Positions 46,127 to 49,266 of a DNA stretch of 56,316 nucleotides are shown in pieces. Both the position numbers and the translations under genes were made by a program. The notes below the pieces were generated by a model that did no database searches, was not told the origin of the DNA, and saw only the letters and a program-made list of their open reading frames with translations. The stretch comes from an uncultured Prochlorococcus sp. (GTDB lineage: Bacteria; Cyanobacteriota; Cyanobacteriia; PCC-6307; Cyanobiaceae), in assembly GCA_902627335.1 (NCBI GenBank), contig CACOIV010000008.1, positions 1-56,316 on the forward strand. Reading direction: 5' to 3'. Position 1 is the first letter of the stretch. Every line of letters begins with the position of its first letter.

Positions 46127-47275
46127 TCACCAAAGTCTTTTCTTCTGAAATAAAAAATTATTTATTGATGGAATATCTTTTTTAAACCTAAAGAATCCCT
46201 TACTTGCAAATTGCCAAGAATATAAATCCTCATCGCGAACCAAATTTTTAATTGTTTTATTATTAGAAACCTTAAAACGATTTATGAAATCATTATTATC
46301 TCCAACACAGGGGTAAATAAGATCTATTTTTTTAATATCGTTTAATTTAGAATTAATTGATAAGGAATCAATAACCTCAACATTTTTGAAGTTAGTACTA
46401 AATTCATTTATTAACCTTTTTTTAAATTCAATAACTTTATTGGATATCTTTAATTGCCTATCCTCATCATTAAGAAAAATAATATATGCTTTTTTATATT
46501 GATTAATTAATAATTTTAAACTTTTTTGGTTAAGGTCATTTTCGAATAACAACAAATATTCTGATGACTTTTTAAAATTGCATTTGAAAATTTCTTTATT
46601 GTTAACTATTTCGAATTCATCTTTTAAATCTAAATCTTTACTAGAAATATGATTAACAACAAATCTATTATCTGAAAATTTTTTTAAGTTTTCAGGAGAA
46701 AATAAATACTTTTTACCTTTTGTTTGCAAACCTGCAACCCATCTCCAGCTGAGTAAATTTGAAGCTGCATCACCATCATTTAGATATTCAAAAAAAAGTT
46801 TAGCGCCCAATTCCCATGGCAACCCTAGGTTGAATATCCAAGTACTCGCAAACCACATCCTAGTATGATTATGAAGATAATTATTTTCTTTTAATTCTTC
46901 GACCCAAAAATTGAAATAAGAAAGATTTGTCTTTCCATTAATAGCCTTTTCATAAAGCATATCATCAAATTTATCAACATTTTTTGAAATAAAATTATCC
47001 CATACACATGGTTTATTTTCTAACCATCCTTTCCAATAAATACGCCAATAAACTTCTTCAATAAATTTATTAACATTATCGCTATTATATTTATTCTTTA
47101 TATCCTTTATTAGATCATACTCTAATAAAATTCTATGAGAAATATAAGGAGAAAGTTTTGATACAGAACTATTTTTATTTGGTCCAAAATCATAATTCCT
47201 AAGATAACTATATTTAGAAATTTTTGAATCTAGAAATTTATCCCAATTGTTTTCTGCTTCTTTTAATAATGACAT
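46127..47275 (-). CDS. Photolyase/cryptochrome-like FAD-binding protein, apparently domain-permuted
   Basis: In this 382-residue protein the first 205 residues are the FAD-binding helical domain of the photolyase/cryptochrome family. They show SKLSPYISHRIL (39-50), EEVYWRIYWKGWLE (73-86), HNHTRMWFASTWIFNLGLPWELGA (135-158 in two parts) and DGDAASNLLSWRWVAGLQTKGKKY (167-190 region). The usual N-terminal alpha/beta antenna domain is missing in front. A Rossmann-like segment instead comes after it (YLLLFENDLN at 240-249, AYIIFLNDED at 263-272). The protein ends with LYSWQFASKGFFRFKKDIP. A light-driven DNA repair or sensory role is inferred. Confidence 0.85.
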   Translation of the reverse strand: MSLLKEAENNWDKFLDSKISKYSYLRNYDFGPNKNSSVSKLSPYISHRILLEYDLIKDIKNKYNSDNVNKFIEEVYWRIYWKGWLENKPCVWDNFISKNVDKFDDMLYEKAINGKTNLSYFNFWVEELKENNYLHNHTRMWFASTWIFNLGLPWELGAKLFFEYLNDGDAASNLLSWRWVAGLQTKGKKYLFSPENLKKFSDNRFVVNHISSKDLDLKDEFEIVNNKEIFKCNFKKSSEYLLLFENDLNQKSLKLLINQYKKAYIIFLNDEDRQLKISNKVIEFKKRLINEFSTNFKNVEVIDSLSINSKLNDIKKIDLIYPCVGDNNDFINRFKVSNNKTIKNLVRDEDLYSWQFASKGFFRFKKDIPSINNFLFQKKRLW

Positions 47276-47473: not shown

Positions 47474-48219
47474 ATGGGAAGCATGATAAATGAAAATTTT
47501 AGAAAATTTCAGCAAGATTATAGATATAAGCTATCAAAAAAGATAGAACATTTTTAAAACTTGAGCGAAATTTAATAAGAATAAATCCAGAAAAAAATTA
47601 CTTTTCACCAACAAATAATTTAAATTTGCCTGAATTATCTAAGGGAGACTATAAATCTTTTTTAAGTAGTTTATTAAAAAAAACCAGATTATGTATTGAG
47701 CCAAAAATTAAAGGTAGCAGTATTGCGATTCAATATATATAAGGAAAATTATTTAAAGCAATATCCAAAAAAGGAATAGATGTAACCGTAAAAATAAAAG
47801 AATTAAGAAAAATCCCTAAATATATCCCAATAAAACAAGATTTTCAAGTTAGAGGAGCACTTTATGTACCTAATCAAATTTTCGAATTATTTAGGATAAT
47901 TGTGAATAAATATCTTATAGGAGACAAGGTTATTGACAATAAAATTTTATTCCGTTGTTTCCAAATTATAAATGGAAAAATTAATCAATATGAAACCCTT
48001 AATTTTCTAAAGAAATGTGATTTTAGTTCTCCTAATTATTACACTACAATTTTCATAAGCCAAGTCGAGTTTTATAGAAAAGAATGGTTGAAGGACCGTA
48101 TATTTTCTAATTATCCAAACGATGGCATTGTAATTAAAATAAATAGCAGGAAATTACAACTAATAAGGGAAAAAAGTTTTTCAAGTTTTAAAGATTGGCA
48201 AAATGCTATCCAAAACTAA
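47474..48219 (+). pseudogene. Decayed NAD+-dependent DNA ligase-like gene (adenylation domain)
   Basis: A reading from ATG 47474 (MGSMINENFRKFQQDY) breaks at about 47540-47560, where an A/T-run frameshift moves it from frame 2 to frame 1. Frame 1 then has a TAA at 47740-47742 and continues open to 48219. Joined, the piece shows IEPKIKGSSIAIQY, which aligns with the LigA adenylation motif KxDG (active-site Lys kept, Asp replaced by Lys). It continues with IDVTVKIKELRKIPKYI, FQVRGALYVP (compare EVRGEVYMP) and NDGIVIKIN (compare DGVVVKV). It lacks the OB, zinc, HhH and BRCT parts of a full ligase. The frame break, stop and short length suggest decay. An internal GTG at 47902 could express only the last 105 residues. 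Confidence 0.72.
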
Positions 48220-48360: not shown

Positions 48361-49266
48361 ATGAAACATAACTGGTCAACCAAAGATATTCCAAATCTCA
48401 ATAACAAGTATGCATTAGTTACCGGAGCTAACAGTGGGCTAGGTTATTTCACAGCTAAAGCTTTAGTTGAAAAAGGATGTCACGTAATATTGGCTTGCCG
48501 AAGTGAAGAAAAGTGTTTGAAAACCAGAGACAAATTAAACAAACTAATTCCAGATGCAAAGTTAAGTTTTTGCATCTTAGATCTCTCAGATTTTCAAAAT
48601 GTTTCTAATAGAGCTAATGAATTATTAGAAAAATATGAGCACCTAGACTTTTTAATTAATAATGCAGGATTAATGCATCCACCCAAAACATTAAACGCAC
48701 AAGGATACGAGATTCAATTCGCAGTTAATCACTTATCACATATGCTCTTAACCATAAAATTACTTCCAATTATAGAAAACAAAGATTATGCGAGAGTAGT
48801 AACTGTAACCTCGGGTGCACAATTCTTTGGAAAAACCAAATGGGATAATCTAAAAGCTGAAAATTATTATAATAAGTGGGAATCATACGCAAACAGTAAA
48901 TTAGCAAATGTAATGTTTGCTTTAGAGCTTAATACCAGGTTAAATCCAAATAAAACATTTTCCTTAGCCGCACACCCTGGAGTAGCAAAAACAAATTTAT
49001 TTAATGCTCAAAAACCAAATCCAAGTCCACTAGAAAAATTTTCTTTAGAACTCTTTAGTCCAATTTTTCAATCTGCTGAAATGGGTGCTTTACCTCAACT
49101 TTATGCAGCAACTTCAGAAAATGCTAAAAGTGGAGAACACTATGGCCCAAAATATAACTTCAGAGGATATCCAAAACTATCTCCTCCATCACCTTTTGCT
49201 AAGGATAAATTTCAGAGAGAGAGGCTTTGGGATAAAAGTTATGATATTTTAGAACAATTTATTTAG
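48361..49266 (+). CDS. Short-chain dehydrogenase/reductase (retinol dehydrogenase/POR-like group)
   Basis: The 301-residue SDR has the cofactor motif ALVTGANSGLGYFTAK near residue 18, a basic residue after strand 2 (ACRSEEKC) that favours NADP, LINNAGLM, the catalytic Ser in VTVTSGAQ and YANSK with Tyr and Lys. The substrate loop AAHPGVAKTNLF is typical of the large SDR group that includes retinol dehydrogenases and light-dependent protochlorophyllide reductase. It is not POR itself. The substrate is unknown. Confidence 0.88.
   Translation: MKHNWSTKDIPNLNNKYALVTGANSGLGYFTAKALVEKGCHVILACRSEEKCLKTRDKLNKLIPDAKLSFCILDLSDFQNVSNRANELLEKYEHLDFLINNAGLMHPPKTLNAQGYEIQFAVNHLSHMLLTIKLLPIIENKDYARVVTVTSGAQFFGKTKWDNLKAENYYNKWESYANSKLANVMFALELNTRLNPNKTFSLAAHPGVAKTNLFNAQKPNPSPLEKFSLELFSPIFQSAEMGALPQLYAATSENAKSGEHYGPKYNFRGYPKLSPPSPFAKDKFQRERLWDKSYDILEQFI

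Follow-up and report, generated by a model that had tools for sequence, protein, structure and literature searches.

The stretch of DNA analysed here, called the window, is a 56,316-nt contig of a Prochlorococcus draft genome (1.31 Mb in 68 contigs, 86% complete), in which a photolyase-like gene and an SDR-family oxidoreductase gene enclose the remains of a ligase-like gene (Table 1). The genus assignment agrees with a protein from another genome of the genus that is identical to one of P. marinus MIT 9401; the named hits listed for its family all belong to Prochlorococcus or picocyanobacterial assemblies. The photolyase-like neighbour has a partial FAD domain near its N-terminus (residues 71-200), and the next 180 residues or so have no Pfam match.

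Table 1. Features of the photolyase-SDR site in the window.
Feature	Position	Strand	Basis
Photolyase-like FAD-domain protein, upstream syntenic neighbour	46127..47275	-	PF03441, E 1.3e-14; synteny
Pseudogene, family C stand-alone NAD+-ligase adenylation-domain gene (photolyase-SDR site)	47474..48219	+	PF01653, tree, site
5' part with Ia-like N-terminus, MGSMINENFRKFQQDYRY, in the original frame from the family start codon	47474..47529	+	Aligns with MGSLLEKNV...QYR of intact copies
4-base deletion shifting the frame (placement ambiguous by a few bases)	47529..47530	+	Alignment with sister genome G287, L225
Remaining Ia-like part and nucleotidyltransferase domain, one stop inside	47533..48216	+	tblastn with intact copies
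Motif I, KIKG instead of KxDG; also in sister genome	47704..47715	+	Alignments
In-frame TAA; GAA in sister genome	47740..47742	+	tblastn and sister alignment
Motif III, VRGA instead of VRGE; RGE intact in sister genome	47848..47859	+	Alignments; RGE to RGA at 47857-47859
Motif IV, DGIVIK, kept	48121..48138	+	Family alignment
Domain end, AIQN-stop; motif V lysine changed to Q, likewise in sister genome	48205..48219	+	Alignments
SDR-family oxidoreductase, downstream syntenic neighbour	48361..49266	+	NCBIfam PRK06197, E 4e-82; synteny

Read in the forward frame with X at the stop codon, the ligase-like stretch matched the adenylation domain PF01653 with an E-value of 6.4e-16. When the whole genome was searched in six frames, the same locus scored 58.7 bits, above the family cut-off, as two joined pieces with one TAA inside. 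When intact copies were used as tblastn queries, residues 21-249 aligned with the broken gene at 54% identity in a single frame. The 5' frame closes at 47555 after the deletion, and the second frame terminates at the stop at 48217. The first-pass annotation of this DNA had described LigA-like adenylation motifs with KIKG for KxDG, a stop at 47740, and no OB, zinc or BRCT domain downstream, and all of this held; a domain search of the read-through of 47474-48219 returned PF01653 as the sole domain, with no OB, zinc, HhH or BRCT domain, and the next gene is the SDR oxidoreductase. The frameshift that it placed near 47550 is real, as a 4-base deletion relative to the sister genome, but lies at about 47529/47530. 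Furthermore, the 105 codons that it gave as open are those counted from the first GTG; 158 codons are open downstream of the TAA. The loss of motif III had escaped it. An open frame with KxDG in motif I and RGE in motif III was not found at the locus, which has the deletion, the TAA, KIKG and RGA instead, and the gene is a pseudogene of the family described below, not a working member of it.

Matches to PF01653 were obtained in 113 of 121 genomes of the genus, mainly as open frames of about 250 codons, and most Prochlorococcus genomes have one to three of these short ligase-like genes. The short genes were grouped into families A (249 aa), B (251 aa), C (the photolyase-SDR site), D (240 aa) and E (other genera, in which LigA is present too). 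The Ia-like N-terminus is found in all five families, and KxDG, RGE and the DGxV motif in nearly all members. All members finish one to a few residues past motif V in the alignment, so that the missing OB, zinc and BRCT domains represent the normal form of the family, not decay, and their absence should not count as truncation. The window copy likewise runs for no more than a few residues past motif V. Two earlier readings had to be given up on this basis, namely that the missing domains reflect the decay of a full-length ligase and that an extra short ligase is unusual in a streamlined genome; the window genome itself carries full-length LigA (contig C5) and an intact 251-aa short gene (contig C55) in addition to the broken copy. 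The tree joins the window copy to intact family C as its sister, with a support of 99, and the copy lies at the same chromosomal site, with the same photolyase-like and SDR flanks. The shared site and the tree support show that it is a broken copy orthologous to a stand-alone gene about 250 codons long. Pairwise dN/dS medians were 0.14, 0.15, 0.31, 0.13 and 0.17 for families A, B, C, D and E, respectively, and 0.15, 0.12 and 0.08 for the photolyase-like, SDR and DoxX-like neighbours at the family C site. Purifying selection acts on the relatives found elsewhere in the genomes (dN/dS of about 0.14), and family C is the least constrained of the short families (0.31 versus 0.13-0.17). PADLOC gave no defence-family match for the short ligases and their neighbours.

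The photolyase-SDR site was examined in 43 other genomes. Comparison across related strains had been suggested as a check on whether this copy is a recent pseudogene, and 33 of the 43 indeed have an intact frame there (248-263 aa, with about 1.07-1.22 kb between the neighbours). The gene is broken in four, each with its own stops or frameshifts, and the site is empty in the other six, where the gap is 146-185 bp. In a tree of the flanking proteins (FastTree, midpoint-rooted), two LigA-bearing genomes that lack the gene at this site are the sisters of the window genome; the remaining empty sites occur at two more places among gene-bearing genomes, which brings the number of such places in the tree to three. 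Since the empty sites are scattered among gene-bearing genomes, the gene is a long-standing occupant of the site that has disappeared or been disrupted many times. The best explanation is that it has resided between the photolyase-like and SDR genes since before the lineage split from most of the genus, at what appears to be a decay-prone site with repeated loss of the short ligase gene. Intact family C genes (L118, L121, L127, L144) have a conserved leader about 330 bases upstream, which contains a TATACT resembling a promoter element and a small hairpin; an Rfam scan of three family C loci detected tRNAs only, and the leader had no known RNA match.

Evidence for decay was taken from comparison with a sister genome, not from a long tree branch. 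Among 266 genomes of the genus, a single close relative (G287) was found, with DNA 97.5% identical over the region. The sister copy lacks the 4-base deletion, has GAA in place of the TAA and keeps RGE, whereas KIKG and the motif V change are common to both genomes, indicating that these two changes are earlier than the deletion and the stop. KIKG is not part of the recent decay, given its presence in a copy without deletion or stop. Note that the sister copy is one base short in an A-run near 47676 (A7 versus A8), either through a genuine lesion or through a fault of the assembly; in the first case the sister copy is broken as well. Whichever reading holds, the lesions of the window copy postdate the split of the two genomes. 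Codon differences between them were 1 synonymous and 15 other in the ligase-like gene, 15 synonymous and 3 nonsynonymous in the SDR gene, and 13 of each kind in the photolyase-like gene. The ligase-like and SDR patterns differ significantly (Fisher test, P = 6e-6), and the 1:15 ratio fits neutrality (P = 0.16), whereas a dN/dS of 0.3 is rejected (P = 0.0013). Seven changes affect columns that are invariant in the 33 intact family C copies, and six of the seven are on the window side. The private deletion and stop, together with the 1:15 codon pattern, point to a recent and unconstrained decay, bearing out the first-pass view of a dying gene. After scaling to the neighbours, no faster protein evolution of the window copy was seen relative to all intact copies; its protein divergence is not above the neighbour-based expectation, and the inactivation must therefore be recent.

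Sequencing or amplification errors in an incomplete, fragmented draft might have produced the same lesions in a gene that is intact in the cell, as the sister genome is free of both lesions and poly-A runs are error-prone. However, the deletion removes four bases outside a homopolymer and the stop arose by substitution. A further six derived substitutions lie at invariant columns, and errors would not have spared the adjacent SDR gene with its 15:3 pattern, so that we consider this explanation very improbable. It is scarcely credible, too, that the gene still functions as two pieces or by recoding, through use of the 3' part or of a frameshifted product. That part does stay open after the TAA and has GTG starts, but motif I is absent from it, and the neutral codon pattern extends over the whole gene including the 3' part, most of the 15 non-synonymous differences being located after the stop at 47740. 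Least credible of the three is a truncated duplicate of the host's replicative LigA, with which the gene shares the adenylation-domain family and the genome, because the short genes share only about 30% identity with LigA, a tree branch 1.78 substitutions per site long (support 100) separates the two, the viral and other-genus short genes group with the short genes and not with LigA, and the short genes all end at one same place. A recently inactivated member of the short family is thus retained as the preferred reading.

Full-length LigA itself was found in 6 of the 121 genus genomes among the matches listed, the window genome included. A search for the OB domain (PF03120) was positive in the six LigA genomes, with a single occurrence in the window genome, in LigA on C5, and was negative in all 26 LigA-less genomes searched, 23 of which are at least 90% complete. 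No OB-domain partner for the short ligases was found in these 26 genomes or in 11 viral records, with T5 as the positive control. In LigA-less genomes, the ATP-dependent ligases are about 546 and about 445 aa long; among the matches listed, the shorter one occurs in 30 of 34 genomes without LigA and in no genome with it. LigA is kept and the ~445-aa ligase was not found in the window genome (contigs C5 and C14), G287, G089, G078, G081, G098 and G108. The window lineage would accordingly stand on the other side of a replicative-ligase replacement, and because the window genome and its sister keep full-length LigA, they may mark the state before LigA loss. Partial NAD-dependent DNA ligase genes have reportedly been described in high-light Prochlorococcus by the Williamson laboratory, in agreement with the LigA and ATP-dependent ligase distribution found here.

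Many of the relatives are associated with mobile elements. In 10 of 13 family B copies, an integrase gene lies directly upstream, ending within about 65 bases, and several overlap the start codon; an integrase is also near 4 of 6 family E copies. tRNA-Ser lies beside five copies (three family B and two family A loci), tRNA-Pro beside one family E copy, and a VapE-like helicase near family D. No integrase trace was found at any of 35 family C loci or at most family A loci, nor was a tRNA found at the window's site. An integrase or tRNA gene at the locus, as expected for cargo of tycheposons or integrative elements, was therefore found for families B and E but not for C. Short ligase genes abut or overlap upstream serine or tyrosine recombinase genes at L201:2062-4712, L137:3697-5594 and L186:2749-4727, and these overlapping ends suggest integrase-ligase operons. 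The intact C55 gene (L002) has a 76-residue integrase C-terminal remnant just upstream, adjoined by tRNA-Ser(TGA) (L002:402-490 and L002:758-986), and it seems to have outlasted its integrase. On an 18.4-kb contig (G096 C15; L136/L137), the short ligase region is inverted at both ends, probably reflecting amplification or an assembly palindrome.

An alignment-based scan of marine viral contigs yielded 21 loci with short ligase homologs, while single-protein scans of these contigs gave no matches. The viral homologs sit inside the short-gene clade of the tree and adjoin RusA, or VapE, VRR-NUC and Mom. One block, shared by L204:4400-11465 and L205-L222, contains VRR-NUC, a VapE-like helicase, a minor tail-like protein, the short ligase and later a Mom-family protein. 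A DNA leader shared between sites, as expected if the gene moved as a unit, was not seen beyond scattered short matches. Given that integrases and tRNA genes accompany the relatives, integrative elements most likely carried the family as it spread, with the window copy as a resident left behind; for the window insertion itself, whose site has no integrase trace, we infer a mobile origin from these relatives.

Taken together, the stretch is very probably a recently inactivated gene without present function, whose intact orthologs encode a stand-alone NAD+-ligase adenylation module with mobile-element relatives. The module consists of a short Ia-like N-terminus and a nucleotidyltransferase domain, about 250 aa in all. 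For step 1, NAD+ ligases use the lysines of motifs I and V together with the Ia domain (PMC6698739). As intact relatives have both lysines and the Ia domain, NAD+-dependent self-adenylation is their likely, predicted reaction; judging from motifs and fold, they would bind NAD+, release NMN and carry lysyl-AMP on the motif I lysine. In the window lineage, the sister genome shows the order of events: the D to K change in motif I and the K to Q change in motif V came first, constraint then ended, and the deletion, the stop and the loss of the RGE glutamate followed. The window copy most likely does nothing now.

The single locus is thus an ordinary recent pseudogene, and its value lies in the family to which it leads: short NAD+-ligase modules kept in most Prochlorococcus, some copies constrained like their neighbours, in a genus mostly without a replicative NAD+ ligase. 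Nick sealing by a ligase adenylation module alone is unlikely without an OB fold. We offer only tentatively, and with more doubt than belief, that the family may be a distinct class of stand-alone NAD+-dependent adenylyltransferases, carried in integrase operons and domesticated several times in Prochlorococcus, with a role beyond ordinary nick sealing. If so, candidate roles would be adenylation of nucleic-acid ends during element integration, or action in trans with an ATP-dependent ligase, and the window would show one domesticated copy being lost.

Among known systems, the closest in fold is the LigA adenylation domain (PDB 1b04, 3jsl, 3baa). The structure model of the C55 protein (pLDDT 85) is predicted to share this fold, with Z of 21-22 and an rmsd of about 2.5 A over about 197 residues, and intact short relatives have motifs I, III, IV and V as in LigA. 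However, the short proteins are stand-alone, only 25-29% identical, about 60-90 residues shorter, and have no downstream domains. Split phage ligases (T5 dnlj1/dnlj2 and the PR1 heterodimer, PDB 9hu3 and 9i5i) likewise place the Ia-like and nucleotidyltransferase parts on a separate chain, and the PR1 chain matched the short-ligase model with Z of 16. On the other hand, T5 subunit A (323 aa) includes an OB domain (PF03120, E 3.8e-22), whereas the short genes stop before it, and the partner subunit B carries HhH and BRCT domains; no T5-type partner with zinc, HhH or BRCT domains was found near the window copy, whose neighbours are the photolyase-like and SDR genes. The viral short homologs (L202-L222) resemble the window copy in being stand-alone (239-259 aa, 30-48% identity, same clade), but they are intact and lie within viral gene blocks. 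The partial ligase genes of high-light Prochlorococcus are said to be similarly short, without OB, zinc or BRCT domains, and to occur in LigA-less genomes that have ATP-dependent ligases, with links to mobile regions; the window copy differs in belonging to a LigA-bearing lineage, in its fixed intergenic site and in being broken. To that earlier work, the present analysis adds purifying selection on several of the short families and integrases directly upstream.
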